A stretch of DNA of 64,000 bases from Pseudobutyrivibrio sp. OR37 (lineage in GTDB: Bacteria > Bacillota > Clostridia > Lachnospirales > Lachnospiraceae), in assembly GCF_900113655.1 (NCBI RefSeq), contig NZ_FOQF01000004.1, forward strand, positions 1-64,000. The letters are read 5' to 3'. Positions 40,300 through 64,000 of the stretch are shown in pieces (positions within the stretch are counted from its first letter, which is position 1; every line of letters starts with the position of its first letter). The notes under the pieces were generated by a model that had not been told where the DNA came from, did no database searches, and was given only the letters and a program-made list of their open reading frames with translations. Made by a program: the position numbers and the translations under genes.

Positions 40300-41448
40300 T
40301 CACATTGCCTCTTTATATAATTCTATAATATCCTCATATTCAGTTTTTCTTGGATTTGCCATGATATTTCCACTTTTCATCGCATCTTTAGCCATAGCCT
40401 TTATATACTCCTCCTTGACTCCTACAGCTGCTAGGCCATCTGGAATTCCCAGTTCAGCATTTAGATTTCTAATGGCCTCTGTAAGCATCTTTGGCTGAAA
40501 CTGTTCTTTTGTAACCGGCTCTTCAGATATGTAATTATATATTTTTAGATACTTTCCTTCATCTACGGAAGAATTATAATTCACAATCGTTGGAAGTAAA
40601 ATTCCATTAGCTACACCATGTGGCACATCAAAATATGCACTCACCGGATGGCTCATAGCATGAACATTTCCCAATCTTGCCCAAGAAAAAGCAATTCCTG
40701 CAAACAATGAACCTACAAGCATATCTTCTGCCGCCTTCTGGTTTTCCCGGTCAGCAACAAAGGCTCTTATGCTTCTACCAATTAATTCCATTGCCTTCTC
40801 AGACATAGCTTCAGTAAATGGGGACGCATCTCTTGAAATATACGATTCCTCTGCGTGAATAAACGCATCTATCCCACATGCTGCTGCAACAGATGCCGGT
40901 GTTGTCATGATTAAATTTTGATCTAAAATCGCATAATTTGGAATTAACTCATAGCTAAAAACTGTAAGCTTATAATCCCTTATATGATCTGTTATTACTG
41001 AAAAAGCTGTTACCTCAGAACCCGTTCCAGCAGTTGTAGGGATTGCAATCATAGGTATAACTTTTCCTGGAACTTTATGAGCTCCTTCGTAATCAGTGAT
41101 TGATCCCCCATACTTTGCAACTACAGCCACTGCCTTAGCCACATCCAATGGCGAACCCCCACCAAGAGCAACAATATAATCTGCTTTTGATTCTATAAAT
41201 GCCTTGGCTGCCTTTTCCACTGTTGTTACAGATGGATTTGCTTCGATATTTGTATAGGAATCAGCATCTATTGAAACTTCATTAAGAAGTCCTTCTACCT
41301 TTGACACGATTCCCATTTTTTCCAAATTAGGCCCAGAAATTATGAATGCATGCTTACCATCTAAATCAACTGAAATCTGTCCAACCTTTTCTAATGCTCC
41401 TTTTCCAACAATAATCTTTTGTGGAATGGAAAATGTAAATTCTTTCAT
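40300..41448 (-). CDS. Iron-containing alcohol dehydrogenase (candidate 5-hydroxyvalerate/4-hydroxybutyrate-type)
   Basis: 382-aa cytoplasmic group III alcohol dehydrogenase. The N-terminal NAD(P)-binding part has ALGGGSPLDVAKA and the family motif IPTTAGTGSEVT. The C-terminal part supplies metal ligands: Asp and His of CGIDAFIHAEESYIS, and His residues of GNVHAMSHPVSAYFDVPHGVANGILLP. GGAGG supports ATG 41448; the frame opens earlier at 41478. It is the last gene of the racemase-TetR/proC/aminotransferase operon, 13 bases after the aminotransferase. That position suggests it reduces the semialdehyde made by the aminotransferase, for example glutarate semialdehyde from 5-aminovalerate to 5-hydroxyvalerate, as in Clostridium viride. 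This role is inference; other aldehydes are possible. Confidence 0.88.
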   Translation of the reverse strand: MKEFTFSIPQKIIVGKGALEKVGQISVDLDGKHAFIISGPNLEKMGIVSKVEGLLNEVSIDADSYTNIEANPSVTTVEKAAKAFIESKADYIVALGGGSPLDVAKAVAVVAKYGGSITDYEGAHKVPGKVIPMIAIPTTAGTGSEVTAFSVITDHIRDYKLTVFSYELIPNYAILDQNLIMTTPASVAAACGIDAFIHAEESYISRDASPFTEAMSEKAMELIGRSIRAFVADRENQKAAEDMLVGSLFAGIAFSWARLGNVHAMSHPVSAYFDVPHGVANGILLPTIVNYNSSVDEGKYLKIYNYISEEPVTKEQFQPKMLTEAIRNLNAELGIPDGLAAVGVKEEYIKAMAKDAMKSGNIMANPRKTEYEDIIELYKEAM

Positions 41449-41461
41449 GCGGTGCCTCCAA

Positions 41462-42679
41462 TTATAATAAAGCCTCAACAGATTCCTTTATGATAGAAAC
41501 AGCTTTATCACAATCTTCCTCTGTTATAATAAGTGGTGGAATCATACGAATCATATGCGCACCAATAGCTGTAATTAGTAAATGTCTGTGCAAGCACTCA
41601 TGCTTAACTTCAACACCTGAAATAGAATCATCAAATTCTACACCAACGAGAAGTCCCATTCCTCTGACCTCTTTCACGTGAGGTAACTCTGATGCTAATT
41701 TCTTCATGAAATAGTCACCCATTTTCTTTGCATTACCAGCAAGATCTCTGTCTAGCAACTCATTTACTTCTGCCAATGCTGCGGCACAAGAAACGGGATG
41801 TCCACCAAATGTTGTTCCATGTGAACCCATCGAAAATGCTTTAGCAACTTCTTCAGTGGCACAAATAGCACCGATAGGCATTCCACCACCAAGTGCTTTT
41901 GCCATAGAAACAATATCAGGCTTGATACCATAATTCATGAAGCACATAGGAGCACCTGTTCTACACCAGCCTGTCTGAACTTCATCAATAAGTAAAAGCA
42001 TTCCATTTTCATCACAAAATTCTCTAAGTCCACACAAAAATTCTTTAGTAGCAGGATGAACTCCACCTTCGCCCTGAACTGGCTCAACCATAATAGCAAT
42101 TGTGTTTTCAGTGCAAGCATCTTTGAATGCCTGAAGATCATTATAAGGTGCATACGAGAAACCGTAAGTCATAGGACCAAATCCAATCTGACATCCATTA
42201 CCAGGCTGGCCTGTAGCGGACATAGCACCAAACGTTCTACCGTGGAATCCCATTTTTGCTGTTACAATGTGATATTTGTTAGGACCGTACTTTTCAATAC
42301 CATACTTTCTTGCCATTTTAATCATGGCTTCATTTGCCTCTGTACCAGAGTTCTGATAAAAAATCTTATCCATACCAATAGTTGTACAAACCTTTTCTGC
42401 AAGCAATGCCTGAGGAATTGTGTATGGATAGTTAAAGGTATGCATAATATCAGATACCTGATCCTTTACAGCAGCAACTACTTTCTCATTACAGTTACCA
42501 GCAGAGTTAACTGCGATACCTGCATAAAAATCTAAGTATGCCTCACCCTTTTCATCATATATATACTGATCTTTTGCTGTCTCGGCAATAAAGTCAAATC
42601 TCTCGTAAGTTTCAATCATATATTTACTTACTTTGTCCTTGATGTCCTGTGCTGTTAAACCTGTGTCTTTCAATCTCAT
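41462..42679 (-). CDS. Class III PLP aminotransferase (ornithine, GABA or 5-aminovalerate type)
   Basis: 405-aa fold-type I enzyme that moves terminal amino groups to 2-oxoglutarate or pyruvate. Visible are YLDFYAGIAVNSAGNCN, NSGTEANEAMIKMAR, HGRTFGAMSATGQ, the cofactor Asp in LLLIDEVQTGWCRTG and the Schiff-base Lys in SMAKALGGGMPIG. The family includes acetylornithine, ornithine, 4-aminobutyrate and 5-aminovalerate aminotransferases. Between proC and an iron alcohol dehydrogenase there are two sensible roles. One is ornithine to pyrroline-5-carboxylate, feeding ProC. The other is 5-aminovalerate (the PrdAB product) to glutarate semialdehyde, feeding the dehydrogenase. Sequence alone does not decide. 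It lies 29 bases after proC. GGAGG supports the ATG at 42679. Confidence 0.88.
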   Translation of the reverse strand: MRLKDTGLTAQDIKDKVSKYMIETYERFDFIAETAKDQYIYDEKGEAYLDFYAGIAVNSAGNCNEKVVAAVKDQVSDIMHTFNYPYTIPQALLAEKVCTTIGMDKIFYQNSGTEANEAMIKMARKYGIEKYGPNKYHIVTAKMGFHGRTFGAMSATGQPGNGCQIGFGPMTYGFSYAPYNDLQAFKDACTENTIAIMVEPVQGEGGVHPATKEFLCGLREFCDENGMLLLIDEVQTGWCRTGAPMCFMNYGIKPDIVSMAKALGGGMPIGAICATEEVAKAFSMGSHGTTFGGHPVSCAAALAEVNELLDRDLAGNAKKMGDYFMKKLASELPHVKEVRGMGLLVGVEFDDSISGVEVKHECLHRHLLITAIGAHMIRMIPPLIITEEDCDKAVSIIKESVEALL

Positions 42680-42708
42680 TATTCTTTCCTCCTAAGTAAA
42701 AATTATTA

Positions 42709-43503
42709 TTACATGCTTCTTGATATTTCTAAGCATTTTTCCATACACTCAAACACTGCACTTCTCATTCCTTTTTCTTCTAGAACTCTTACAGCTTGAA
42801 TTGTTGTTCCTGCTGGTGAACACACCATATCTTTCAACTCACCTGGATGCTTACCTGTCTCTAGCACCATTGTTGCACTACCTTTAACAGCCTGTGCTGC
42901 AAATTTATACGCCTGCGCCCTTGGCATTCCACCTGCCACTGCCGCGTCTGCCATGGCTTCAATGAACATAAATACATATGCTGGAGAACTTCCACTTACT
43001 GCAGTAACCACGTCCATTAAGTGTTCTGAAATAACCTCTGTAGCTGAAAATCCCTCACATATATCTCTAACCAATGCAACTTCCTCTTCAGTTACATTTT
43101 CATTTGGGCACAAACCCATCATTCCTTCCTTTACCATTGCAGGGGTGTTGGGCATAGTTCTAATTATTTTTAAGCCGTCTCCTAACTTTTCAGCCATCCA
43201 CTCTAATTTTTTTCCAGGAGCTATTGTTACAATGATTTGAGCAGGTGTTACAACATCTTTAATCTCCTCTAATACTCCTTTGTAAAACTGAGGTTTTATA
43301 GCTAAATAAAGGACATCTGAAAACTCTACAACTTCTTTATTATCAAGAGTTGTATTTACTCCATATTTATCTTTGTACATTTGCAATAGAGCCTCAGATT
43401 TATCTGATATAATCAAATCCTCACTTTTGCATTTGCCTGCATCAAGCATCCCCGTCATCATTGCGCCACCCATGTTGCCACAACCTATAAATCCAATTTT
43501 CAT
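42709..43503 (-). CDS. proC: Pyrroline-5-carboxylate reductase
   Basis: 264-aa cytoplasmic NAD(P)H enzyme reducing pyrroline-5-carboxylate to L-proline. The Rossmann start KIGFIGCGNMGGAMM (GxGxxG) and TMPNTPAMVKEGM are present, as is the C-terminal dimer domain with AVSGSSPAYVFMFIEAMADAAVAGGMPRAQA and the signature PAGTTIQAVRVLEEKGMRSAVFE. AAGGAG supports ATG 43503. In Hyp-fermenting clostridia, ProC converts the P5C made by HypD to proline, and here it sits 14 bases after the racemase gene that acts on the product. It is therefore more likely catabolic than biosynthetic, although it could serve both. Confidence 0.95.
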   Translation of the reverse strand: MKIGFIGCGNMGGAMMTGMLDAGKCKSEDLIISDKSEALLQMYKDKYGVNTTLDNKEVVEFSDVLYLAIKPQFYKGVLEEIKDVVTPAQIIVTIAPGKKLEWMAEKLGDGLKIIRTMPNTPAMVKEGMMGLCPNENVTEEEVALVRDICEGFSATEVISEHLMDVVTAVSGSSPAYVFMFIEAMADAAVAGGMPRAQAYKFAAQAVKGSATMVLETGKHPGELKDMVCSPAGTTIQAVRVLEEKGMRSAVFECMEKCLEISRSM

Positions 43504-43517
43504 ATCATATTCTCCTT

Positions 43518-45137
43518 TCATATAGCTTTTTCTTTTCTATTGAGCATATGCTCAAGATAAACTGGCAATATCTTACTACTATTCAAAACCAGTGAATCTG
43601 TACCACCTTTTATGCACCAATCATATATAAGACCTCTCTCAATAGAAAAATATGATTCAGCCAAAGATTGGGCATCTTCTTCGCAACTAAACTCTCCATT
43701 GGCTTGGCCCTCTTCTATAATTTTTGGTATCAAGTGATAATAAAAACGATTGTCATTTAAAACATTTTGTCTTTCAGCCGGGGTGCCAACATAGATATGA
43801 GAAATCAAGTCAAATGGCACTTTCTTTTCTATTAGTTCAAACATTTCCCTATTGAGATAAACAAGCTTCTCATATTGGGAAATCTTAGGATTTATAGATA
43901 TCATCAACTGTGTATACTTTTCATCAAATAAATCCCCTAACGTATGCTCTAACTCATCCTTGGATGAGAAGATGTCATAGAATTCCGCTTCTGAAATATT
44001 TGCAATGTTTATCACATCTTCTATGGAAGTATTTTCATATCCTTTATCTGCAAACAGTGTCCATGCAGCCTCAACAATTTTTCCTCTAATGCTTTCCTCT
44101 TCCTGCTTAGTTGTTCCAAGTAGGAATCCAAATCTATGTGGATCCTGTTCATCGATTATCCATTCGTTAAATCCTGTAATCCAAGCACTTCCAGTTATCT
44201 GAGGAATGATTGCCTTCATGCCTGCAATCTCAACTTCTTTAATAGCTTCTCCTATAAAAAGTGAGCCTGTTATACTTTCATAAACGAATTTTTCGTTTAG
44301 TTTTAGCTCGCCCTTAGTATATAAAGTCGCCAGTTTAGCTGAAGTTCCTGTGCCGCAAGGTGACCTGTCGGCTTGTGCATCTCCAAATATTACACAATTT
44401 TTCATGTGTGCTTTAGAGTTTGAGGTAGGTCCATAAAACTCCACTAAATCAACCGTTGTTATATCAAGATATGGATGCTTTATATCAATCTCATCATTAA
44501 TTCTAGAAAGTAAATGCATTCCAAGTTCTGTAATTTCTTCTATGTTTTCTATTTCAAGTTCTAAACCAATTTGCTTCGCATTTACGATAGCGAAAAAAGA
44601 ACCACCAAAAGAAATATCGAATTCAATATCTCCATACCCGGGAATCTCTATGTGCTGACTTTCTTTATAGAGAAAAGATGGAACATTGAGAATGCTTACA
44701 TCAACTGCTTCACCATCAACAACGTGGACCCGAGTTCTTATTATTCCACTAGGTGCATCTAAAACCACATCAGTATATGGTTCAGTAACCTCAACCATTC
44801 CTGTTTCCACAAGCATAGAAGCTGTTCCTATACTTCCATGACCACACATGTTTAAACATGAACCGCTATCCATAAAAATCACTCCGAAATCAGCTTCTTT
44901 GTTAACCGGCTCCGTGAGCAAGGCACCAAACATGTCTCTATGGCCACGTGGCTCAAGCATTAATGCCGTTCTTAGATAATCGTAATTTGAAACAAGATAA
45001 TTCTTCTTTGCCATCATAGTTTCACCTGGCAAATCAGGAAAACCATCATAACAAATTCTTGTACATTCTCCTTCTGTATGAGAGTCGATAGTTTTTAAAT
45101 GATATGCATATTTCCTTACATGTGGATTCTGTTTCAT
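43518..45137 (-). CDS. Proline racemase fused to a C-terminal TetR-type DNA-binding domain
   Basis: 539 aa. Residues 1-340 are a full proline racemase/hydroxyproline epimerase with both catalytic cysteines: Cys98 in [10 protein letters not shown] and Cys261 in [12 protein letters not shown]. Cys/Cys excludes trans-3-hydroxyproline dehydratase, which has Thr at the second site. The usual racemase ending ([10 protein letters not shown]) is followed within a few residues by a TetR_N-like domain (about 350-397: [20 protein letters not shown], then [20 protein letters not shown]). A helical ligand/dimer domain (about 400-535) ends the protein. No stop or frameshift lies between. GGGGG about 8 bases upstream supports ATG 45137. 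It is first in an operon with proC, aminotransferase and alcohol dehydrogenase, divergent from a LysR gene. The racemase would supply D-proline for PrdAB. The fused TetR part may make it a proline-responsive regulator; this is inference. Confidence 0.9.
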
Positions 45138-45230
45138 AGGTTTTCCCCCGAAATTAATTTTCTCAATATTAACCACATACCTGATGATTTGTAAAAGTAC
45201 TCATTTTCATTGAGGTCATAAGAAAATGTA

Positions 45231-45253: not shown

Positions 45254-45282
45254 TAGACAGTTATGACAAAACCCTCTATAAT
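45254..45282 (+). promoter_or_regulatory. Sigma-A promoter on the plus strand toward the LysR gene
   Basis: TAGACA (45254-45259), a 17-bp spacer and a perfect TATAAT (45277-45282). Transcription should start near 45289 and enter the terminator hairpin at 45308. Confidence 0.7.
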
Positions 45283-45307
45283 AACGTTCAATAATGACAA
45301 GGCCAAT

Positions 45308-45340
45308 GAGGGCATCCCGTCGCGGGGTGCCCTCTTTTTC
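45308..45340 (+). terminator. Strong hairpin terminator in the LysR leader (attenuator candidate)
   Basis: A 12-bp GC-rich stem (45308-45319 with 45323-45334, one wobble) around TCG, followed by five T. It lies about 20 bases after the predicted start of transcription and about 50 bases before the LysR ATG, with no gene before it. Confidence 0.8.
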
Positions 45341-45388
45341 ATTATTAGGAGTATATTAACCAGCACCACAAGAAAGGTTTTTACAAAT

Positions 45389-46258
45389 ATGGAGATTACC
45401 AAGTATTTACTATTTGCGGATGTAGCAGAAACAAAAAACTTTACGAGATCTGGGGACAATATGGGATATACTCAACCTGGTGTTAGTCATATCCTTAAAT
45501 CTATGGAAAATGAAATCGGTTTCCCACTTTTTATAAGGACACGTCAAGGTATAGAGCTTACTCCTAACGCGGAGGTTATACTTCCTATTGTTAGACGGAT
45601 GCTCTCTATAAATGAACAATTAGAGCAAACTATAGCGTCATTAAATGGTTTAGAAATTGGTCATCTAACTATTGCATCCTTTGCAAGCACCTCTAGAATT
45701 TGGTTACCAAAGGTAATCAATAAATTTCAGCGAACATATCCTGGAATTGAGATTGAACTTTTGGAAGGTGGTACCGACGATATTGTGGGATGGATAAACA
45801 ATAATTATGCCGATTTTGGTCTTGTCAGCAGAAGACACACGGAAAATTTGGAATGGATAAAAATTGCTGACGATCCCCTTGTGGCAGTTTTACCAGAGGG
45901 CTTTGTTGATGACGATGATGAAATCTTTCCTATTTCCAACATGCATAACCAACCATTTATTATTCCAGCAGAAGGAACTGACTATGATGTGCACTTTGCC
46001 TTAGAAGATTCAGGAGTAGTTCCTGACGAAAGATTCTCATCAAAGGATGACAGCGCAATTGTATCCATGGTCGCTAATAATTTAGGCCTATCAATCCTTC
46101 CAGAACTGGTTGTTATGGGCAATGATTTTAAATTCAAATCTCTTCCTCTTGATCCGCCTTACAAGAGAGAATTGGGAATTGCATATAGAGCAGACAATTC
46201 TTTATCACCTGCTGCAAAGCATTTTATAGAAATACTTCAGGAAATGATTTGCGCCTAA
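45389..46258 (+). CDS. LysR-family transcriptional regulator
   Basis: 289-aa regulator. The N-terminal winged helix-turn-helix (residues 1-60: YLLFADVAETKNFTRSG ... MGYTQPGVSHILKSMENEIGFPLFIR) is followed by a periplasmic-binding-like effector domain (about 88-289). The start was placed at ATG 45389, where the family begins; the frame continues upstream to 45263 through a terminator hairpin and is unlikely to be translated. The ribosome-binding site is weak (AAAGG, 11 bases). It is divergent from the racemase-TetR/proC/aminotransferase/ADH operon, and a LysR-type box lies between them, so it probably controls that operon and itself. Proline or a pathway intermediate is the likely effector, by inference. 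Confidence 0.9.
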   Translation: MEITKYLLFADVAETKNFTRSGDNMGYTQPGVSHILKSMENEIGFPLFIRTRQGIELTPNAEVILPIVRRMLSINEQLEQTIASLNGLEIGHLTIASFASTSRIWLPKVINKFQRTYPGIEIELLEGGTDDIVGWINNNYADFGLVSRRHTENLEWIKIADDPLVAVLPEGFVDDDDEIFPISNMHNQPFIIPAEGTDYDVHFALEDSGVVPDERFSSKDDSAIVSMVANNLGLSILPELVVMGNDFKFKSLPLDPPYKRELGIAYRADNSLSPAAKHFIEILQEMICA

Positions 46259-46349: not shown

Positions 46350-47225
46350 TTATTCAAGCCACTTAGCTGATAATTCATCAAATGTACCATCTGCAATAAG
46401 TTCTTCTACAGCCTTGTTAAATGTTTCAACAATACCAGGATTTGCCTTCTCACAGTCAAATGAAATAGCTATAGCATATGGTGCTTGGCCCTGGTTAAAA
46501 GGCTCACCCTTGATTTCAATTTTTGTATCAGCTGCAGTGTTAATATAATATGCAAGACCTGGTGTATCCTGAATAATAGCATCAACCTTTCCCTGCTCAA
46601 GAGACTCATAAGCTGTTGTAATCTCATCATGAACCTCAAGTGCATCTTCTGGAATTCCAATATTCATGGCATACATATGAGAAGCTGTTCCCTTTTCAAC
46701 TGCAACCTTATAATCACCACTTGTAAGCATATCTACAGATGTTAATTCTTCTGGTGATGTTTCCTTATTTACAGCAATTGACTGTCCTGAGTCACAATAT
46801 GTATTTGTAAAGTTCATAACCTCTTTTCTCTCGTCTGTAGCACAAAGAGCTGCCATACCAAAATCGAGTTTTCCTTCTGCTAAAGAAGTTGCAAGAGCCG
46901 AATAATCCATTGCCTGCATTTCACCGTCGATCTCGAAGCCAAGATAATCTTTTAATGCGTTGCAAAAATCAATATCAAATCCAATAAGAGCACCGCTTTC
47001 ATCATAATATGAAAAAGGAGCAAACAGCCCTGAAGTTCCAAATGAAAGAGTCACTCCCTCTAAAGCACCTTTTACTGAACCATCTGCTGAAGTAGCAGCT
47101 GGCTCGTCTGCTACTGCTGTTGTAGATTCTAATTCAGAAGAGCTACTTCCACATGCCACTAATGTGCCCATCATAGCAATAGATGTACCTACTGCCACCA
47201 TTTTCCTGAGTAATGTGTTTTTCAT
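46350..47225 (-). CDS. Amino-acid ABC transporter substrate-binding lipoprotein
   Basis: 291 aa. The lipoprotein signal has a basic start and GTLVAC as lipobox (Cys at about residue 25), then an acidic Ser/Thr/Ala linker. A type II binding fold of the polar amino-acid family (SBP_bac_3) follows: SGLFAPFSYYDESGALIGFDIDFCNALKDYLGFEIDG and ALATSLAEGKLDFGMAALCATDERKEVMNFTNTY. It delivers an amino acid to the permease and ATPase of the same operon. Nearby proline/Hyp genes suggest such a ligand, but specificity cannot be read. AAGGAGG supports ATG 47225. It is last in the operon, followed by a terminator. Confidence 0.92.
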   Translation of the reverse strand: MKNTLLRKMVAVGTSIAMMGTLVACGSSSSELESTTAVADEPAATSADGSVKGALEGVTLSFGTSGLFAPFSYYDESGALIGFDIDFCNALKDYLGFEIDGEMQAMDYSALATSLAEGKLDFGMAALCATDERKEVMNFTNTYCDSGQSIAVNKETSPEELTSVDMLTSGDYKVAVEKGTASHMYAMNIGIPEDALEVHDEITTAYESLEQGKVDAIIQDTPGLAYYINTAADTKIEIKGEPFNQGQAPYAIAISFDCEKANPGIVETFNKAVEELIADGTFDELSAKWLE

Positions 47226-47277
47226 AATATGTCCTCCTTATTAAAAAAATGTCATCTATATAAAAAATAATGACTTC

Positions 47278-47874
47278 CTATAGAAACCTATCCTTTGCAA
47301 TATCAGCAAGAATTTTTGCTGTATCATGAATTCCAAATAGACTAGAATTAATCATTAAATGTGTTGATTCGAAATCTGCTGGAGAATGACCCGCATATCT
47401 GTGCCAATACTGTTCTCTTGCACGATCAACTTCTTCCATCATTTTTTTAGCCTCCTTAGGAGACATCTTTAATGCGTTTACGCAGTTTAAGTATCTTTCG
47501 TTTTCAGGAGCATAAATGTATATATTTAAAACATTAGGATAATCACGAAGAATATAATCCGCACATCTACCAACGAAGATTGCAGAATCCTTTTCAGCAA
47601 AATCTCTAATGATTTTTTTCTGAGCTTCGAAAATCTTATCCTGCTTGTCTATGCTGTCGGTACCTAAAGGAAAAAGCATATTTAAAAAATTACTCTTTAC
47701 GCTTTTTTCCTCTTCAGAATGGATAACCGAAACAGGCAATTTTAATTCCTGTGAAGCAGCTTCAACAATATCTCTGTCGTAATATTCAATACCTAACATT
47801 TCTGAAAGCTCTCTGGCAATAGGTCTTCCAAGACTTCCAAACTGTCTAGCAATAGTAACGTAATACTTAGCCAT
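47278..47874 (-). CDS. Cytidylate-kinase-like family protein
   Basis: 198-aa cytoplasmic protein of the cytidylate-kinase-like family (PF13189 type). It begins YYVTIARQFGSLGRPIARELSEMLGIEYYDRDIVEAA, a divergent phosphate-binding loop without the classical GKS/T. IFVGRCADYIL and the lid segment REQYWHRYAGHSP follow. The family is common in Lachnospiraceae and Clostridia and its substrate is not established. It lies inside an amino-acid ABC operon, 18 bases after the ATPase gene and 52 before the binding-protein gene. That position is unusual and suggests a linked but unknown role. GGGAGG supports ATG 47874. Confidence 0.82.
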   Translation of the reverse strand: MAKYYVTIARQFGSLGRPIARELSEMLGIEYYDRDIVEAASQELKLPVSVIHSEEEKSVKSNFLNMLFPLGTDSIDKQDKIFEAQKKIIRDFAEKDSAIFVGRCADYILRDYPNVLNIYIYAPENERYLNCVNALKMSPKEAKKMMEEVDRAREQYWHRYAGHSPADFESTHLMINSSLFGIHDTAKILADIAKDRFL

Positions 47875-47892
47875 AATTCTTTATCCTCCCTT

Positions 47893-48633: not shown

Positions 48634-48637
48634 ATGC

Positions 48638-49285: not shown

Positions 49286-49307
49286 ACGATTGTCCTCCCA
49301 AGATAAT

Positions 49308-49352: not shown

Positions 49353-49434
49353 CCTTTGTTCAAGTTTTGTCATAATATATCATTCTGAATGGTAATTGTC
49401 TAATAATAGTTTCTTATGGTCTACATTAATAAAA

Positions 49435-56153: not shown

Positions 56154-57167
56154 TTATGCCTCCCTTTTTTCGACAATTAAGTCAACCTCTGGTGCTAAAT
56201 CATGTTGAAGCCAACAGTAGGTAGAATGTTCTTCTGTAAGGGTTGTTTTTGATGGCTCGTATTCATAACAAACACTCATTGCATATTCACATCTTGCTGC
56301 AAATGGACACCCCTTAGGCGGTGCAAACAAATCTGGAGGAGTTCCCTCAATTGGTGTTAAAACCTGATTTCTCTCCATATCCAATCTTGCTATAGATTTT
56401 AGTAAACCACTAGTATATGGATGTGCTGTATCAAAGAAAATATCTTCGCTTGTTCCCTGCTCTGCCACTTTTCCACCATACATAACAACAACTCTGTCAC
56501 ATAGTCTTGCGATTACTCCCAAATCGTGAGTAATCATTATTATAGAGGTTCCAAGTTTTTCTCTCAGCTCAAGGAGTAAATCAAGTATCTGGGCCTCAAT
56601 CGTTACATCTAAAGACGTTGTTGGTTCATCGCAGATAATTAAGCTTGGTCTACTAACCAAAGCAATGGCAATCATAATTCTCTGTTTCATTCCGCCTGAC
56701 AACTCATGTGGATACTGCATAAATCGACGCTCGGGATCATTTATTCCAACAAGTCTCATTATATTTAAAGCTTTTATTCTAACCTCAGCTTTTGGCGTAC
56801 CGGTTCCAATAAATACTTCTTCAATTTGTTCTCCAACACGCATTGTGGGATTAAGAGAAGTCATAGGATCCTGAAAAATAAATCCTATGTCCTTACCTCT
56901 TATATTCCTTAACTGCTTGTTATTCATTTTTATAATATCCTGACCCTTAAAAAGGATTTCACCACCTTCAAAAAAGCCAGGTGGTTCAGGATTCAACCTT
57001 AATATACTTTGTGCTGTTACGCTTTTGCCGCATCCTGATTCTCCAACAATTCCAAGGATTTCTCCCTTTCTAACTTCAAAGCTAACACCTCTAACTGCAT
57101 GTACAAGTCCAGCATATGTCTTAAAAGAGAAAACCACATTATTTAATTCAAGTATTTTTTCACTCAT
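56154..57167 (-). CDS. oppD: Oligopeptide ABC transporter ATP-binding protein OppD-like
   Basis: 337-aa ATPase. Walker A is GESGCGKSV (about residues 38-46), FIFQDPMTSLNPTMRVGEQ is the Q-loop region, the signature is LSGGMKQRIMIAIAL, Walker B is LIICDEPTTSLD, and the switch His is in MITHDLGVIARL. The C-terminal extension has CPFAARCEYAMSVC. It is the partner of OppF in a heterodimeric motor for the OppBC channel. AGGAG supports ATG 57167. It lies 11 bases after oppC. Confidence 0.94.
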   Translation of the reverse strand: MSEKILELNNVVFSFKTYAGLVHAVRGVSFEVRKGEILGIVGESGCGKSVTAQSILRLNPEPPGFFEGGEILFKGQDIIKMNNKQLRNIRGKDIGFIFQDPMTSLNPTMRVGEQIEEVFIGTGTPKAEVRIKALNIMRLVGINDPERRFMQYPHELSGGMKQRIMIAIALVSRPSLIICDEPTTSLDVTIEAQILDLLLELREKLGTSIIMITHDLGVIARLCDRVVVMYGGKVAEQGTSEDIFFDTAHPYTSGLLKSIARLDMERNQVLTPIEGTPPDLFAPPKGCPFAARCEYAMSVCYEYEPSKTTLTEEHSTYCWLQHDLAPEVDLIVEKREA

Positions 57168-57178: not shown

Positions 57179-58111
57179 TTAATCAGTTCCTCTTAATTTA
57201 GGATCAACGGCATCTCTTAAACCATCGCCTAGAAGATTAAGAGCCAACATTGTCGTACAAATGAAAAATGCAGGTGCTGCCACTTCATGAGGTGCTACTC
57301 GAAGCATCTTAATACCTTCTTTTGCCAATACACCCCAACTACAGTTAGGAGGTGATATGCCAAGACCAATGTAGCTTAAAAATGCTTCCTGGAATATGGC
57401 TCCTGGTATTGCCATACATAAATTTGTAACTAGTAATCCCAATACATTTGGAATTATTTGCTGAACAATTATTACAATATCAGGAACACCTAATATTTTT
57501 GCTGCGCTAATGAAATCCTGCCCCTTTAATCTATACACCTCACCTCTTACGAATCGGCAGGTTCCTATCCAGCCCACTATACACATGGCAATAATCAAGG
57601 TCATAACACCCTTTCCTATAACTACCATCACAAGAATAGTAATTATAAGGGATGGGATACCATAGAGAATATCAACAATTCTCATCATTACCATGTCAAG
57701 CTTTCCACCATAAAAGCCACATAAGCCTCCGATTACTGCACCAACACACATATTTATTGTCGCCGACAATAATCCAATTGTTAGTGAGACTCTAGCTCCC
57801 ATCCATATTCTCACCCATAAATCTCTTCCTGTAGAATCGCATCCCAGCCAATGTACAAGTGATGGTGAGGCATCAATAGCTGAGGTATCCATCGTTGAAT
57901 ATTCATACTGAGATAGAAAAGGTGCGAATATTGCCAACAGTCCATAACAAACGATGATTATCAAACCGATAATAGCAGCTTTGTTTTTCTTAAGACGTCT
58001 CCATGCATCCTGCCAGAATGACAATGTTGGGCGAATTATTAATTCCATGTCATCGGCGTTTTTTCCCATGACAACAAACATTTCTTTTGTAAGCTTTTTG
58101 TTTTCCTCCAT
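57179..58111 (-). CDS. oppC: Oligopeptide ABC transporter permease OppC-like
   Basis: About 310-aa membrane protein of the BPD_transp_1 family with an N-terminal OppC_N segment (RPTLSFWQDAWRRLKKNKAAIIGLIII). It has about six helices and the EAA loop (EVYRLKGQDFISAAKILGVPDIVIIVQQIIPNVLGLL). It ends with GDGLRDAVDPKLRG, the standard OppC/DppC ending. The start is ambiguous: ATG 58111 has AGGTG about seven bases upstream, while ATG 58117 and GTG 58120 are also in frame right after the oppB stop. Translation is probably coupled to oppB. Confidence 0.93.
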   Translation of the reverse strand: MEENKKLTKEMFVVMGKNADDMELIIRPTLSFWQDAWRRLKKNKAAIIGLIIIVCYGLLAIFAPFLSQYEYSTMDTSAIDASPSLVHWLGCDSTGRDLWVRIWMGARVSLTIGLLSATINMCVGAVIGGLCGFYGGKLDMVMMRIVDILYGIPSLIITILVMVVIGKGVMTLIIAMCIVGWIGTCRFVRGEVYRLKGQDFISAAKILGVPDIVIIVQQIIPNVLGLLVTNLCMAIPGAIFQEAFLSYIGLGISPPNCSWGVLAKEGIKMLRVAPHEVAAPAFFICTTMLALNLLGDGLRDAVDPKLRGTD

Positions 58112-58120
58112 GTGCATCAC

Positions 58121-59041
58121 CTACTTTCCACCGATTCGAACTCTAGGATCTACAATGCCATAAAGAATATCTACGATTAAATTACAAACCACAAGAAACA
58201 TTCCATAAAAAACAGTCATGCCCAAAATCATTGAATAATCATTTTGAGTTACGCTTTCAACGTAATATTTACCCATTCCAGGAATAGCAAATATTGATTC
58301 AATTACAAAGGTTCCTGTAAGTACTGATGCAACAGTTGGACCAAGCATTGTTATTACAGGCATAATCGCATTTCTAATCTGATGCTTAACGGTTATTCTG
58401 AAATTAGATAACCCCTTTGCCTTTGCAGTTTTTATGTAATCCTGCTGCACAACCTCAAGCATACTGGCTCTCATTATTCTTGAAACAGATGCCAATGTGT
58501 AAAATGCCAATGCACAGGCTGGCAGTATCGTATATTCGAATCCTCTGTATTTTGCCACTGGTAGTAATCCCCATTTAATTCCAAAGAAATATTGGAGCAA
58601 CGCACCCATAATAAAATCCGGAATACTTGTACCTAATATTGCAACGATTACACAAAAGAAATCTATTTTTGTACCCCTATTTTTTGCTGCAAGGATGCCA
58701 AATACAATTCCAAATGATATGGCAAGCATCAATGCCCTGATACCTACATCAGCAGAAAAAGGAAATCCCTGACCTATTATGTAATTCACTGTTTTATTGG
58801 TATAAAACATGGAATATCCAAAATTCCCATGAAGTAAATTCCCAATATATTGAAAATACTGCATGTAAAGTGGTTTATCGAAGCCATAGTATTTTTCCAT
58901 GTTTAATGCAACTTCTTCAGTGAGCTTTGCACTAGTAAAAGGTTCTCCCGGCATAAGTCTTACTAAGAAAAAAACTACGGTTATAAGAACAAATAGGGTT
59001 ATTATTGCTGCTATTACACGCTTGATAATATACTTCGCCAT
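58121..59041 (-). CDS. oppB: Oligopeptide ABC transporter permease OppB-like
   Basis: 306-aa membrane protein with six predicted helices. It starts YIIKRVIAAIITLFVLITVVFFLVRLMPGEPF, the standard OppB/DppB beginning. The EAA loop is ASMLEVVQQDYIKTAKAKGLSNFRITVKHQIRNAIMPVITMLG, followed by the ending VDILYGIVDPRVRIG. It forms the channel with OppC. GAGG supports ATG 59041. It lies 11 bases after oppA. Confidence 0.94.
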   Translation of the reverse strand: MAKYIIKRVIAAIITLFVLITVVFFLVRLMPGEPFTSAKLTEEVALNMEKYYGFDKPLYMQYFQYIGNLLHGNFGYSMFYTNKTVNYIIGQGFPFSADVGIRALMLAISFGIVFGILAAKNRGTKIDFFCVIVAILGTSIPDFIMGALLQYFFGIKWGLLPVAKYRGFEYTILPACALAFYTLASVSRIMRASMLEVVQQDYIKTAKAKGLSNFRITVKHQIRNAIMPVITMLGPTVASVLTGTFVIESIFAIPGMGKYYVESVTQNDYSMILGMTVFYGMFLVVCNLIVDILYGIVDPRVRIGGK

Positions 59042-59052: not shown

Positions 59053-60708
59053 TTATTCTACGTCAGCATATACCCAATCTATATTGATACTGCAGAAATA
59101 GAATTCAACACCTGTAAACTTATCATTCAACAAGTAATGCTGCTGTCTACACTGAAGTGGTACAAATGCTGCATCCTCAAGAATGATTTTTTCTGCTTCA
59201 TTTAACATGTCCATACGGGCCTTAACATCTGTTTCTGTTTTTGAATCTTCAAGTAACTTATCAAATTCATCGTTCTTATAATTGCTGTAGTTATAAGAAC
59301 AATCGGACTTGAATAATTCAAGATATGTGTATGGATCTGAGTAATCTGGTCCCCATCCACCATAAGCAATCTGATAATCACCATTTGGAAGAACAGAACC
59401 ATAAATGTCAGCATATGTTACCTGTCTAATAGTTACTGTAATTCCAAGAGCGTTCTGCCATAACTCCTGAAGTACTTCTGCAATTTTCTTAGATGCCTCA
59501 AGGTCTGTTGTAGTAAGTTCAATTTCAATTTCTGAAGGATCAGAATATCCTTCCTCACTCATGGCTTTCTCTAAGTATTCCTTTGCCACATCAATATCAC
59601 CATCTAATGGATATGAATCTAATGTATATTCCTCGCCATAAGATTTAGACACACCCCCTACTAGAGGCATTACTAAAGTATTGCTAGGTGAATAAACATT
59701 ATTCGTAGCAAGAGCTATATAGTCATTTCTGTTAAGACCGTAGTTAAGAGCCTTTCTAAAGTTCTTGTTTGAAACTATTTTGTTTGTACTCTCCTCGTTA
59801 ATGTAAAGGTAATCTTCATTACCATTCATAAACTCAGAATCGATATCATCATACTGTGCAACTGAATCTGTTGGTAATTTTACAAAATCAAGCTCACCAT
59901 TCTCATACATTGCTACAGCTGTGTTTGGTTCTGAAATAACACTAAACTCTACTCTATCAAGATTAATTGCATCTTTATTCCAGTACTGATCATTTTTTTC
60001 AAACACATACATCATGTTATCAGTACTTACCAGCTTAAATGGACCACTATATACATTCTTGTCTGCTGTTGCAGCAAAATCAGCGCCATAGCTTTCAACT
60101 ATATCTTTTCTAATTGGAACGTACTGTGATGCAGTACCAACCATGCTCAAGAAATATGCACATGGGGTTTCAAGCTCAAGCACTAATGTTTTATCATCTT
60201 CTGCACGGACTCCTAATTCACTTACTTCCATTTCACCAGTTTCTACCTCATATCCGTTTTTGACGTATTCACCAATAAACGCATACTCACTAGCTGTGGC
60301 AGGGTCAAGTAATCTCTGTAATCCATATACAAAGTCATCAGCTGTAACTGGCTGGCCATCTGACCAATTTGTATCTCTAAGATGGAAAGTGTAAGTAAGA
60401 CCGTCTTCTGACAACTCCCATGATTCAGCAATACCAGGTTCAACTTTACCTCCAGTTCCTCTAACTAGTGATTCCTGACAAGCATGAATCAATTCATTGT
60501 CAACAATACTGTTGGCTTTGCTTGGATCAATAGTTGTTGGTTCTACTGTATCGGAATATCGAAATACTTTTTCAGATGATTCTGATCCTGAGCCTGTATC
60601 CGCAGTTGAGGCATCAGCCGCAGTATCCTCTGTCTCATAAGCACCACAAGCCATGGCTCCTATGGACATGGAAACTGCAACAAGTAAACTTAATAACCTC
60701 TTTTTCAT
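59053..60708 (-). CDS. oppA: Oligopeptide-binding lipoprotein OppA-like
   Basis: 551 aa. The lipoprotein signal has a KKR start and the lipobox GAMAC (Cys at about residue 21), followed by an acidic Ser/Thr/Ala linker. An SBP_bac_5 fold follows, including VEPTTIDPSKANSIVDNELI, the family site GIAESWELSEDGLTYTFHLRDTNWSDGQPVTADDFVYGLQRL, and a C-terminal GWGPDYSDPYTYLELF. It captures peptides for OppBCDF. GGAGG supports ATG 60708; the frame opens earlier at 60768 without support. It is the first gene of the ten-gene operon ending with ppnP and lies downstream of the prdB terminator, so it should have its own promoter. Preference for Pro/Hyp peptides is inferred from the operon. Confidence 0.93.
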   Translation of the reverse strand: MKKRLLSLLVAVSMSIGAMACGAYETEDTAADASTADTGSGSESSEKVFRYSDTVEPTTIDPSKANSIVDNELIHACQESLVRGTGGKVEPGIAESWELSEDGLTYTFHLRDTNWSDGQPVTADDFVYGLQRLLDPATASEYAFIGEYVKNGYEVETGEMEVSELGVRAEDDKTLVLELETPCAYFLSMVGTASQYVPIRKDIVESYGADFAATADKNVYSGPFKLVSTDNMMYVFEKNDQYWNKDAINLDRVEFSVISEPNTAVAMYENGELDFVKLPTDSVAQYDDIDSEFMNGNEDYLYINEESTNKIVSNKNFRKALNYGLNRNDYIALATNNVYSPSNTLVMPLVGGVSKSYGEEYTLDSYPLDGDIDVAKEYLEKAMSEEGYSDPSEIEIELTTTDLEASKKIAEVLQELWQNALGITVTIRQVTYADIYGSVLPNGDYQIAYGGWGPDYSDPYTYLELFKSDCSYNYSNYKNDEFDKLLEDSKTETDVKARMDMLNEAEKIILEDAAFVPLQCRQQHYLLNDKFTGVEFYFCSINIDWVYADVE

Positions 60709-60732
60709 AGTACATTCCTCCTTTTTTCTTAT

Positions 60733-60769
60733 ATTAAAAAGTTGCGCACAGTACCATCCTATACGCAAC
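60733..60769 (-). terminator. Terminator after prdB
   Basis: GTTGCG (60741-60746) pairs with CGCAAC (60764-60769), with partial inner pairing. It is followed on the minus strand by five T. It separates the prd operon from the opp operon. Confidence 0.7.
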
Positions 60770-60838
60770 CTCTTTGTTGACTTTTAAAATATTTATGGGA
60801 ATAATCCCTTAACCTCATTCAAGTCCGTATTCTGATGT

Positions 60839-61561
60839 CTACACATTATGTCTGTACTCATATGGGAGCACCTTCATCTGATTGTAACTTGGGCAATCAC
60901 GAACCCACTCAAGAGACTCCTTAACAATAGCTGTCTGCTGTGGAATATTGTTTGGCTCACCTGCGTTTGAACCAATAGGTACATGTGGTGCAGTGATTCT
61001 TGGTGCCCCCTGCTGACGTGCAATTGGAGGAAGAGCTGCAATAACAACGCAACTCATACCAAGTTCTTCACAGCATCTTGTTACGATTGTGGCAGATCTA
61101 TGACACGTACCACAACCACCTGTGCAAAGGACAATATCCACACCCTGGTCCTTAAGCTTTCTAGCAATTTCTGGTCCTGTTTCGTTCTTAAACTTTTCCA
61201 CATTTCCACCACCTCCCATAAAGGTATATGTTTCTGTAGCAAGAGAACCAATAAAGCCTTCTTCTACTAGCTCATGTAATCTATCAATAGGAAACATTGC
61301 ATTTACATCCTTATTGATATCCGAATTATCAAAGCCACCATGGGTAACCATTAGCTCTGAAGATGGGGTAGAAAACTCTATTGTTCTATATGAAAAATCT
61401 CCCGATGTATTGAATGGTGTCTGGCTTTTCTTATGAATACCTCCGGCTGTAATGAATGCCACCTTACATTCACTAAGTGGTTTCTTCAATTCTGAAAATA
61501 CAGGCTTTGGTGTAACAGGTACAAATATTTCTGACTGCATTCCTTCTTTTGTTGTTAACAT
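60839..61561 (-). CDS. prdB: D-proline reductase subunit PrdB, cysteine-containing form
   Basis: 240 aa, about the same length as the Clostridium sticklandii subunit. D-proline reductase opens the proline ring reductively to 5-aminovalerate, the Stickland electron-accepting step. The active-site segment is LCTGGCGTCHRSATI, with Cys150 (codon TGT) at the position where the classical enzyme has selenocysteine encoded by UGA. GGIHKKSQTPFNTSGDFSYR and ALPPIARQQGAPRITAPHVPIGSNAGEPN are further family segments. GGAGG supports ATG 61561; the frame opens earlier at 61624 without support. It follows the two-repeat protein gene by 14 bases in the prdA operon and ends in a terminator. A Cys enzyme would not depend on selenium. 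Confidence 0.93.
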   Translation of the reverse strand: MLTTKEGMQSEIFVPVTPKPVFSELKKPLSECKVAFITAGGIHKKSQTPFNTSGDFSYRTIEFSTPSSELMVTHGGFDNSDINKDVNAMFPIDRLHELVEEGFIGSLATETYTFMGGGGNVEKFKNETGPEIARKLKDQGVDIVLCTGGCGTCHRSATIVTRCCEELGMSCVVIAALPPIARQQGAPRITAPHVPIGSNAGEPNNIPQQTAIVKESLEWVRDCPSYNQMKVLPYEYRHNV

Positions 61562-61575: not shown

Positions 61576-62019
61576 TTATATCGATTCTACCGGTATATCT
61601 CTTTTTCCAACCAGGTTCATACAACTGAAATAAAACTCTGCGTCCGAACCTTCTTTAAGCGGAATATCTGTAAAATACCAGCGTCTTGGAACTGCCACCG
61701 TACCAAGCTTATCCATAATCTCTACCTTAGCAGCGGTATCATTCACTTCTGTTATCTTTCCTCCAAGCAAACATGGAGTAATTTCATGGTCAGTTACCAT
61801 ATCTGAACTGTCATAATCATATGGATTCTCAACTACTTTGATATAACTAAAGTAAAATTCCATCTCATGACCTGGTTCTATCTTTTCTTTTGTTGTTACC
61901 AATTTCTTTGGGACAGTAATGACGCCTAATCTCCCGTGCAGATGGACTTTTATTTGACTATCACTTACCTCTTTTACAAGACCTCCCATTTTAATTGGAT
62001 TAATCATGTAATCTAACAT
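61576..62019 (-). CDS. Small two-repeat protein between prdA and prdB
   Basis: 147 aa, family not recognised by name. It is an internal duplication: residues about 9-65 and about 84-142 share the pattern GG-x-x-x-EV-x-D-x-x-x-KV ... LG-x-x-x-VP ... G-x-E-x-EFYFS. For example, GGLVKEVSDSQIKVH matches GGKITEVNDTAAKVE, and MEFYFSYIKVV matches AEFYFSCMNLV. The pattern suggests two small beta-barrels. The start overlaps the prdA stop by one base (TAATG) and prdB follows 14 bases later, so it is made in step with both reductase subunits. Prd clusters of clostridia often have small uncharacterised genes here. It may assist PrdA cleavage, subunit assembly or electron delivery; this is inference. Confidence 0.75.
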   Translation of the reverse strand: MLDYMINPIKMGGLVKEVSDSQIKVHLHGRLGVITVPKKLVTTKEKIEPGHEMEFYFSYIKVVENPYDYDSSDMVTDHEITPCLLGGKITEVNDTAAKVEIMDKLGTVAVPRRWYFTDIPLKEGSDAEFYFSCMNLVGKRDIPVESI

Positions 62020-63797
62020 TAATGCAAAGTTCCATTATCAAGTAATACTGTCTCAGGAAGTCCAAGAAGCTTGTTATTTGCATTAATTACATCGTTATTC
62101 CACTTCTTTGGTGCTGGCTTAATTTCAACACCTGCCATCTTATTCTTCAACATCTGAATTGCACGGGTAGCAACTTCCTTTGTTACACATGAGCAGCCTG
62201 CCACATTATTTTCAAATCCGCCCTTATCCATATTTTCCTCAACCATGGCTGTAGCATATTCATTACCAACAACTAACTGACCTTGATATGCACAGAAGGA
62301 TACACCAACAACTGGAATGCCTCTCTTTCCAGCCTGACCAATATGCTGAATGAAATCGATATGGTTATTTCCAAATCCTTCAGTTGTGATAATGCATCCA
62401 TCACAATCAAGAGATTCAAGTAATGAACCTAATCTTTCTGACACCCAAAGTTTTTCATCATTTACCTGAGGAGAGCCAATAAATATTACACCAATAAGAT
62501 CAAGCTCAGTATCTGCTGCAAGTCCTTCTACAAGTGGCTCACGAATATAATGACGAGTCATTTCCTTTGTGGCTGGTCCAATGCATGTAAGGGCATGAAT
62601 AGAACCATCTCGAACCTGATTAGGAGTGAGAACGATAGGTACGTTACCGCAATCCACATTCTTTTGGCCACCAAGTATTCCGCAAGGCTCTGTTGGGCAA
62701 ATGACATTATCATGCATTGCACCCTGTCCCATAATTTCCTTTACTAAAACAACTCTTGGATTTCCAGCTCTTCTGACATCTTCACAAATCTCTTCTCGGA
62801 TAACTTCACCTTCGTATTTTTTAAGCTCATCTCTAATAGTCTGAATCACATAATCTTGACACTTATGAGCTGCGAATGGACCTGGTCTTGTCATACCAGT
62901 TAATCTTTCAATAACAGCATGGCATCTGATAATAATGTCATTCTCGTCTGCACATCCAGGATGACCAAAATACATTTTCTCATCAAGATAACCTTCTGAT
63001 GAGCCAAATTCATGTACCTGAACTCCATCCTCATCAACGCCAGTAAGCATAAATACAACACCGTCAGCTACTTTTGTGATACCTTCTCCAAGCTCACCTT
63101 CCACCTTTGTTGCGATAGGGCACACATCCATAATTGTTTCTGTGTACTGATGTCTTTCATTTGGATAAATAATATCAAGCGCAAGACTCTTACAAAGTGG
63201 ATCTTCTAGAACCGCTTTATCTACTACATTTTTGTCAATTGTAAGCACTCCATCGATAATAGAAGTTTTATCACCTAACTCTACCTTGGAGATTTTCATA
63301 TGTTTTTTCTTTAATGTTCTAATTACCTTTTTTTCGCCTGTTGGTGCTGCTACTCCTGGAGCAGGTACAAAAGTCTCTGCTGCTGGTGCTGCTGCACCTC
63401 CAATTGGCAAATCTAATTTTAGGCCTTCAATATGATCTGCCTTAGCTATTTCTATATGTAACATACCTTCTCCTCCAATCTTTGTAGTAATTATTGGTTT
63501 TGACTCATTCGTCACTGATTCTTTTTCAGCGGAAGAATCAGTCTCATTAACCTTATCTAATACCTCTGCAGTAATAGGTGTTAGTGCTTCTACATCAGTA
63601 AGTAATGTGCTTCCCAGCACCTGTTCAATCTTTAATCCATTTGGACTTAGAGTTAATAGACCAGCATCAACCATATCATCAAATAATGATGGGTCCTCTA
63701 AATCCGCCGCACTAATTACCAATCCTTTTTCTCTTCTACAGCAAAAGATTGCTGGATCCTTCAAATGCTGCTCCAATGTTTCTTTTGTAATAGACAT
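62019..63797 (-). CDS. prdA: D-proline reductase proprotein PrdA
   Basis: 592-aa proprotein that self-cleaves to give a large subunit and a small pyruvoyl-bearing subunit of D-proline reductase. The probable cleavage site is Thr404-Cys405 in HALTCIGPATKEMTRHYIREP. Cleavage would give a 188-aa C-terminal fragment (about 20 kDa) with its N-terminal Cys converted to pyruvoyl, matching the known T-C processing and small-subunit size in Clostridium sticklandii. The C-terminal part also has CIITTEGFGNNHIDFIQHI and YQGQLVVGNEY, strongly conserved in PrdA. The N-terminal region includes an Ala/Pro-rich linker (about 133-155). GGAGG supports ATG 63797. It lies 13 bases after the partial upstream gene and overlaps the next gene by one base. 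Confidence 0.95.
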   Translation of the reverse strand: MSITKETLEQHLKDPAIFCCRREKGLVISAADLEDPSLFDDMVDAGLLTLSPNGLKIEQVLGSTLLTDVEALTPITAEVLDKVNETDSSAEKESVTNESKPIITTKIGGEGMLHIEIAKADHIEGLKLDLPIGGAAAPAAETFVPAPGVAAPTGEKKVIRTLKKKHMKISKVELGDKTSIIDGVLTIDKNVVDKAVLEDPLCKSLALDIIYPNERHQYTETIMDVCPIATKVEGELGEGITKVADGVVFMLTGVDEDGVQVHEFGSSEGYLDEKMYFGHPGCADENDIIIRCHAVIERLTGMTRPGPFAAHKCQDYVIQTIRDELKKYEGEVIREEICEDVRRAGNPRVVLVKEIMGQGAMHDNVICPTEPCGILGGQKNVDCGNVPIVLTPNQVRDGSIHALTCIGPATKEMTRHYIREPLVEGLAADTELDLIGVIFIGSPQVNDEKLWVSERLGSLLESLDCDGCIITTEGFGNNHIDFIQHIGQAGKRGIPVVGVSFCAYQGQLVVGNEYATAMVEENMDKGGFENNVAGCSCVTKEVATRAIQMLKNKMAGVEIKPAPKKWNNDVINANNKLLGLPETVLLDNGTLH

Positions 63798-63810
63798 ATA
63801 TTCTTCCTCC

Positions 63811-64000
63811 TTATTTAATTTTTCTTATTAATTTATGATTAACGGCTCTCAATGCCTGATCCGTACAATGATAAACTGGTAAGCCTAACTGCGGTGCGCA
63901 AGACATTACTGTGTTCGAACAATCTGTGCAATTGCTAATTAATAAGCCCTGGGCTCCTGCTTTCTTTAGTGACATTACCTTGGCTACCTGTCCTGGACAT
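63811..64000 (-). CDS. Cys-rich protein upstream of prdA, C-terminal 62 residues only
   Basis: The C-terminal part of a minus-strand gene cut by the window end; stop TAA at 63811-63813. The visible residues include CPGQVAKV at the edge, LLISNCTDCSNTVM, a single Cys in SCAPQLGLP, and VYHCTDQALRAVNHKLI. Five Cys in 62 residues with a C-x-x-C pair suggest a metal- or thiol-redox site. It is 13 bases upstream of prdA in the same direction, so it belongs to the prd operon. The family was not recognised; PrdC-like electron transfer or an accessory role is conceivable, but not shown. Confidence 0.6.
   Translation of the reverse strand, partial: CPGQVAKVMSLKKAGAQGLLISNCTDCSNTVMSCAPQLGLPVYHCTDQALRAVNHKLIRKIK

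Follow-up and report, generated by a model that had tools for sequence, protein, structure and literature searches.

The first 64,000 nucleotides of contig NZ_FOQF01000004.1 of Pseudobutyrivibrio sp. OR37 (RefSeq assembly GCF_900113655.1; hereafter, the window) carry, from position 40,300 to their end, a gene island that is probably a modular Stickland-acceptor system of acquired origin for peptides rich in proline and hydroxyproline, and whose D-proline reductase, PrdAB, has cysteine at the position held by selenocysteine (Sec) in the characterized enzyme. The contig is 153 kb long and belongs to a genome of 3.56 Mb that is 99.99% complete. Read along the minus strand, the island comprises prdA, a CBO2463-domain gene, prdB, a hairpin, a run of genes from oppA to ppnP, an amino-acid importer, and a racemase-TetR fusion gene with proC, an aminotransferase gene and an alcohol dehydrogenase (ADH) gene; past the end of the window it is extended by prdC (an equivalog-level match), an Lrp-type regulator gene and a glutamate dehydrogenase (GDH) gene. 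In the mechanism that we propose, OppABCDF would import short peptides, two M24 peptidases would cleave their Xaa-Pro and Xaa-Hyp bonds, activated HypD would dehydrate trans-4-hydroxyproline to pyrroline-5-carboxylate (P5C), ProC would reduce P5C to L-proline, the racemase part of the fusion protein would turn this into D-proline, and PrdAB, with electrons from PrdC, would open the D-proline ring to yield 5-aminovalerate and regenerate NAD+. Each of these steps is drawn from family membership and gene order, and the pathway reading, already put forward in a first-pass annotation of the window, is well supported by sequence, with a predicted gene for every step from the uptake of peptides to the formation of 5-aminovalerate. 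The activities, transport substrate, regulation, co-transcription and diet of the island we likewise infer.

Genes were identified by profile searches of the window proteins, and the earlier gene list held up, with HypD, PrdA, PrdB and ProC all matching at equivalog level. The ten genes oppA-B-C-D-F, M24a, M24b, activase, hypD and ppnP form a continuous minus-strand run (60708-49435) whose measured gaps of -4 to 28 bp bear out the earlier description of intergenic distances of about 30 bases or less. The trans-4-hydroxy-L-proline dehydratase gene, hypD (49775-52150), scores 1503.7 bits against NF043068 (cut-off 1100) and 1267 bits against PDB 6vxc, with which its product aligns over the full length; the GGTSGCVE stretch, holding the Cys/Glu motif (GCVE) of glycyl radical enzymes, and the glycyl-radical motif RVAGY are both kept. 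Its neighbor across a 13-bp gap encodes a HypD-type activase (52164-52988) that stays under its own equivalog cut-off (NF043069, 354.5 bits against 425), yet has the CxxxCxxC motif. At another locus (L100, G000:C54:43634-46018) we noted a second glycyl radical enzyme with its own activase, 33% identical to HypD and, at 537.8 bits, under the HypD cut-off. The metal-ligand set of M24 peptidases, D, D, H, E, E, is intact in both Xaa-Pro peptidases of the run, M24a (54091-55170; phmmer against 3q6d, 238 bits) and M24b (52985-54076; against 1wn1, 183 bits), as judged from alignments to these structures, and these intact ligands rule out M24b as a degenerate second copy. The importer has the full complement of an Opp system: a family 5 peptide-binding protein (oppA, 59053-60708; PF00496, 274 bits), the permeases OppB (58121-59041; PF00528, PF19300) and OppC (57179-58120; PF00528, PF12911), and two ATPases with an oligo_HPY tail (oppD, 56154-57167, and oppF, 55180-56151; PF00005 and PF08352 in each). 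The run closes with a small ppnP-like gene (49435-49746; NF007875, 75 bits, under the cut-off of 143). On these features the enzymes of the island look competent. Because RUG12053, a separately assembled metagenome-assembled genome (MAG) of Pseudobutyrivibrio sp., agrees with window positions 64000-50852 at 98.9% identity, linkage of prd, opp, M24, activase and hypD through an assembly artefact is ruled out; the PrdB of this MAG is 100% identical to that of the window, and strain YE44 is a near relative.

In Clostridioides difficile, PrdB is a selenoprotein and hypD-proC is located apart from prd. The island resembles the hypD-proC genes and prd operon of that species in chemistry, with HypD, P5C reductase and then proline reduction, and differs from them in linking a peptide importer, peptidases, hypD and prd and in the Cys of its PrdB. 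One study reports that growth of C. difficile on hydroxyproline depends on hypD and that its prd expression rises when hydroxyproline is present, and describes the reduction of hydroxyproline via HypD and P5C reductase in C. difficile and commensals (PMC9044972). A literature search on hypD gene clusters, hypD with peptidases and Pseudobutyrivibrio added nothing further of use here.

PrdA (62019-63797, a proprotein of 592 amino acids (aa)) and PrdB (60839-61561) pass the proline-reductase equivalog cut-offs, with 876 bits against 700 for TIGR04480 and 452 bits against 300 for TIGR04483; a search of PDB sequences returned no match to either at E 1e-5. The window PrdB reads LCTGGCGTCHRSA, and alignment places Cys150 (in GGCGTCHRSA) at the Sec position, so that CGTC stands where the characterized enzyme has its UxxC motif. 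A hidden selenocysteine is ruled out, since the position is a Cys codon within one open frame that has no in-frame TGA. The first-pass annotation had treated PrdAB as the ordinary enzyme and passed over this residue. Searches of the window genome gave nothing for SelA, nothing over cut-off for SelB, SelD matches that all fall below cut-off, and no tRNA-Sec over the gathering score; ten weaker tRNA-Sec candidates were listed, and the eight run in ARAGORN were ordinary tRNAs. The proline route of this organism should, on this evidence, run without selenium, with Cys replacing Sec in the reductase. Across 392 genomes of the order, PrdB passes its cut-off in 25, which divide into 19 with the Sec form only, five with the Cys form only and one with both. 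SelB passes its cut-off in 19 of the 25; the other six comprise all five genomes with the Cys form only, of which one has a completeness of 75%, and a single Sec genome with a completeness of 78%.

Six Cys-PrdBs served as seeds for a further scan, of named genomes. The best 80 of 88 loci were kept, as stretches cut at 10 kb or at contig ends, and all 80 have Cys, which is not a frequency, the loci having been found via a Cys-PrdB alignment. Hosts include Clostridia, Selenomonas, Megasphaera, Peptostreptococcus, Clostridium tyrobutyricum, Liquorilactobacillus, Bifidobacterium, one Planctomycetota MAG and others. Ten Bifidobacterium loci (L166, L167, L169, L172, L176-L181) read prdC-prdA-CBO-prdB(Cys)-tetR-racemase, with hypD nearby on the opposite strand (in L177 and L178 only its edge), and no SelB over cut-off was found in the three genomes of this group that were tested (L166, L167, L169). 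At four of the 80 loci (L110, L132, L150, L153) a Cys-PrdB and a Sec-PrdB are both present, within about 6-10 kb.

Whether 5-aminovalerate is the end product depends on how the last genes of the racemase operon (45176-40300) are read. The first-pass annotation gave this operon as racemase-proC-aminotransferase-ADH; the order stands, and the racemase is in fact the fusion discussed below. ProC (42709-43521; TIGR00112, 275 bits, cut-off 197) is followed by a class III aminotransferase of ArgD type (41462-42679; TIGR00707, 424.5 bits, cut-off 410) and an iron-type ADH (40300-41478; a profile match that reaches no curated cut-off). Candidate roles for this last pair are the conversion of ornithine to P5C and of 5-aminovalerate to 5-hydroxyvalerate. 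It is possible, if rather doubtful, that the pair belongs to the electron sink itself and would carry 5-aminovalerate through glutarate semialdehyde to 5-hydroxyvalerate, with GDH recycling glutamate and 5-aminovalerate no longer the end product. The 17-bp overlap of the aminotransferase and ADH genes within the racemase operon, the position of the GDH gene near prdC, and the presence of an aminotransferase relative, mostly after the racemase, in 13 of the 80 Cys-prd stretches are consistent with such a route; however, the aminotransferase scores as ArgD/ornithine type, its closest structures are acetylornithine aminotransferases, and ornithine feeding into P5C fits it equally.

That the Opp system and peptidases belong with proline and hydroxyproline metabolism is suggested by their recurrence elsewhere. 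RUG391, a distant MAG reached via its PrdB, has on one strand the series activase-hypD-proC-oppABCDF-M24a-M24b-GH127-prdC-prdA-CBO-prdB, 45-91% identical to the window set, with an importer and a racemase after prdB. The 392 genomes of the order hold 22 other HypD loci, two of them in stretches shorter than 8 kb, and none of the 22 has close relatives of both opp and M24, in keeping with the earlier statement that the window set is more complete than the usual hypD set; given the whole set in RUG391, however, the synteny of opp, M24 and hypD for which a search had been proposed is not unique. Partial versions were seen at four of them: a distant opp set (22-44%; an OppF fragment 56%) with M24 in G097, M24 in G204 and G149, and, in G381, OppB (72%) and OppA (44%) at roughly 6-8 kb from hypD with no M24. 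In a hand-picked set of 37 genomes, which is no sample, M24a relatives of at least 54% identity occur in seven, with opp adjoining in six of the seven and a proline or hydroxyproline gene near in five. In G271, M24a and oppABCDF adjoin genes for a member of the proline racemase family and for flavin/ferredoxin oxidoreductases, and in G385 they adjoin a racemase-family gene, contexts that suggest a different hydroxyproline or proline route. Taken together, the M24a-opp contexts and RUG391 support an Opp system for Pro/Hyp peptides, a preference that gene linkage would predict. Among eight other sampled members of the genus, HypD passes its cut-off in none and PrdB in one, which marks the island as accessory.

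The GH127 gene of RUG391, between M24b and prdC, bears on the source of these peptides. Its product matches structures of beta-L-arabinofuranosidases, with HypBA1 (3wkw, 398 bits) and 4qjy (543 bits) among them; GH127 is known as a family that removes arabinose from hydroxyproline of plants. GH127 genes also lie near activase-hypD-M24 in G204 and G149, at 1-3 kb from the activase, and the RUG391 gene is about 10 kb from hypD; these are three loci in two lineages, an association that chance could produce now and then, and the search, made with one query, missed the second GH127 gene of the window genome (L191) and may have missed further cases. The presence of GH127 in the hypD neighborhood of three relatives favors plant-wall peptides over collagen, and with the RUG isolates presumably of rumen origin, the food of the system is likely to be plant wall hydroxyproline-rich glycoproteins in the rumen. 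The likeness to the HypBA1/GH127 system of Bifidobacterium longum comes through the match of the RUG391 protein to HypBA1; in B. longum the sugar is the food, whereas the place of the RUG391 gene inside a hypD-opp-prd island suggests use of the peptide as well. Two papers describe such enzymes, HypBA1 included, as acting on arabinofuranosides of plant hydroxyproline-rich glycoproteins (PMC10850190, PMC7263609).

Several observations weigh against reading these parts as a single selenium-free, plant-peptide-fed system. The prd locus of YE44 is without the hypD-opp block, and relative to it the window has additional sequence in two places, opp to ppnP (60839-49407) and the TetR part with proC (44121-42695). 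In RGIG7529, a MAG from water buffalo, prdB and the importer flank activase-hypD-ppnP, and an Lrp-like gene stands where the window has opp-M24 (60838-52989), so the parts are separable; on such comparisons the island is modular. No P5C reductase gene adjoins hypD, as proC lies about 6 kb off, and a ProC relative occurs in only two of the 80 Cys-PrdB stretches. G341 and G381 have M24a with no proline or hydroxyproline gene recognized in the stretch. The two GH127 genes of the window genome are on other contigs, none being in the window island. Where SelB was tested, in 50 of the 80 Cys-PrdB genomes, 30 are without it over cut-off and 20 have it, so Cys-PrdB can occur without loss of the Sec machinery and is no mere stand-in for it. 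The operon limits given earlier are also uncertain, for no terminator hairpin is found by folding between ppnP and the importer (z 0.7).

The claim of a terminator closing each block fails more generally: terminator-like patterns are no more numerous than in shuffled sequence (8 against 6.4 +/- 2.3; 6 against 6.5 +/- 2.5), folding gives no hairpin after the ADH gene (z 0.0) and, downstream of the importer, a hairpin with a weak T-tract (z -3.6). By folding, a convincing terminator is present only at the prdB-oppA boundary (60725-60838, minus strand), where a strong hairpin (-32.8 kcal/mol, z -5.3) with a U-run resembles an intrinsic terminator, an element that is absent from the pattern-scan list. 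This hairpin, which parts prdB from oppA, and the separability seen in YE44 and RGIG7529 would suit a division of labor in which the peptide/HypD part serves proline and nitrogen assimilation and PrdAB works separately on free proline. We regard such a division as unlikely, however, since in RUG391 hypD-proC and prdCAB directly enclose opp-M24, all of them on a single strand, and at four loci (L109, L120, L122, L123) activase-hypD follow prdB and the racemase.

The Cys form of the reductase appears to have a history and a company of its own. In a PrdB tree built with the Sec/Cys column masked, one branch with support 100 parts 81 Cys rows from 17 Sec rows; the tree is unrooted, its Sec sample is narrow (7 further Sec genes of the order survey being left out), and the Sec rows of L064 and L110 are apparently one gene. 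We read Cys-PrdB as an old separate lineage rather than as scattered recent substitutions. Between prdA and prdB of the window, a pair that the first-pass annotation correctly named while passing over what separates them, lies a gene for a 147-aa protein with two copies of the CBO2463/CBO2479 domain (61576-62019, minus strand; NF041553, 174.7 bits over two stretches). HypD was seen in 18 Cys-PrdB stretches out of 80, with partial matches making up 5 of the 18, and in 0 of 12 Sec-PrdB stretches, loci too few and too related for a test. In PrdA, Cys405, by its position presumably the pyruvoyl-precursor site, is present in 91 of 91 aligned sequences, and Cys19 and Cys20 are likewise invariant, some of the 91 rows being one gene fetched twice. 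That Cys-type PrdAB might reduce a substrate other than D-proline, such as another cyclic or hydroxylated imino acid, in a differently aimed reductive pathway is improbable: it would accord with the one long branch, with a CBO2463 relative in 78 of the 80 stretches (51 of them cover most of the two-domain length; the Sec stretches have short matches, in 4 of 12) and with a racemase in just 51, but PrdA and PrdB exceed the proline-reductase cut-offs, PrdC is present in 66 of the 80, both Cys motifs are kept in 47 of the 49 longer racemases there, and Cys405 does not vary.

With the D-proline reductase of Acetoanaerobium (Clostridium) sticklandii, whose PrdA is a proprotein with a pyruvoyl-precursor Cys, the window enzyme shares the PrdA proprotein, the presumed precursor Cys and the PrdB family, but PrdB has Sec there and Cys in the window. 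Reviews list PrdB as a selenoprotein with UxxC (PMC9312934; PMC13188914, which has Sec "in some bacteria"), and older surveys, in which the PrdB family is drawn broadly, include counts of its Cys homologues (PMC1088965, PMC2398784), so that Cys homologues as such are not new. A literature search, with subscription journals mostly outside its reach, returned no recognizable paper describing an operon for a Cys-type proline reductase in genomes that lack Sec, and none on a racemase-TetR fusion. What is new in the island is the variant and the arrangement of a known chemistry.

The fusion gene itself (43518-45176, minus strand) is one 552-aa frame in which a proline racemase (residues 24-353; PF05544, 393 bits) with two Cys motifs, which we take to be the catalytic ones, is joined to a TetR-type domain (about residues 357-546; PF00440, 40.8 bits). 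The racemase part is 55% identical to the A. sticklandii racemase 7pb3. The same fusion occurs at seven other loci, as proteins of 532-535 aa, making eight fused open reading frames (ORFs) in which an enzyme and a DNA-binding domain are conserved in one chain, and the seven in other genomes rule out an assembly artefact or loss of a stop codon. A separate tetR gene stands next to a racemase gene on the same strand at 22 listed loci, two of which are apparently one locus fetched twice. The fused TetR parts form one clade of eight rows (support 100/100), for which reason a fusion newly formed in the window is not favored; a ninth row labelled fused in the TetR tree (L177) and one in the racemase tree (L169) carry that label by ORF length alone and are not among the eight fused ORFs. 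Racemase parts with and without TetR are intermixed in their tree, with 7 changes, at least 4 of them forced by well-supported branches, but shuffled labels give as few changes in 29 of 500 trials, and the racemase tree alone thus tells little. The racemases of YE44 and KH1P17 group with that of the window (97/93) and are without the TetR part. One fusion, then several losses or transfers, would fit these trees. An AlphaFold model of the fusion was middling (pLDDT 75.7, pTM 0.54) and was used solely for confirming the racemase fold; its best 50 PDB rows are racemase, epimerase, trans-3-hydroxyproline dehydratase, PhzF or DapF-like folds, with no TetR entry among them. The TetR half probably couples expression of the island to proline or a related metabolite. 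In trigger enzymes of the PutA type, a proline-metabolizing enzyme is likewise joined to a DNA-binding regulator; the window protein would be a cofactor-independent racemase with a C-terminal predicted TetR domain, a likeness in concept for which no homology is claimed.

The polar amino-acid ABC importer block (46350-49363, minus strand) named earlier was recovered by profile searches as permease, ATPase and binding-protein genes, together with a cytidylate-kinase-like gene (47278-47874; PF13189, 158 bits) that had gone unmentioned; 24 of the 80 Cys-PrdB stretches contain a relative of it (for example L105, L109, L112-L114, L116, L117, L120, L122, L123, L129, L130, L155-L158). The earlier placement of everything on a single strand applies to the prd, opp-to-ppnP, importer and racemase blocks and not to a LysR regulator gene on the plus strand (45263-46258; PF00126, PF03466), whose likely start is near 45389, where the helix-turn-helix match begins. 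Between a promoter-like site at 45254 (11/12) and this start, a 12-bp G+C-rich stem followed by TTTTT (45308-45334, plus strand) is a possible attenuator; no Rfam family reaches its gathering score in the window. After the ADH gene, 37616-40231 encodes an 871-aa protein with a PPDK_N domain and no full PEP synthase match, kept at the same position in YE44 at 88-90% identity. Past the GDH gene (L003:8700-10388 onward, contig position about 68,700) are genes resembling a cassette-recombinase-like serine recombinase and a phage-type repressor, and a mobile element may adjoin the island there. Two long open frames, 17229-19169 (646 aa) and 19416-21797 (793 aa), have no Pfam match at E 0.001.

Proline reductase is known from textbooks as a selenoenzyme, and it contributes to the fitness of gut bacteria that live by Stickland fermentation. 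Beyond the probable role of the island in its own host, we offer more tentatively, as a possibility that falls short of an even chance, that a selenium-independent PrdAB lineage, with Cys-PrdB and its CBO2463 partner, has spread across Firmicutes of the rumen and gut, and across Bifidobacterium and Liquorilactobacillus, as an exchangeable core for islands of peptide fermentation, which would take extensin-type plant glycopeptides to 5-aminovalerate with the racemase-TetR fusion as a sensor of proline flux. If a Cys form does operate without Sec machinery, surveys based on selenoproteins would fall well short of the number of gut and rumen bacteria, among them bifidobacteria, to which this electron sink is open, and predictions of which organisms compete for proline and hydroxyproline would change. 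The racemase-TetR fusion would be a candidate for an enzyme that senses its own substrate. Modular islands of this kind offer a way to study how genes for the uptake of peptides and for the reduction of hydroxyproline and of proline come together, and bear on whether plant wall glycoproteins feed Stickland metabolism.

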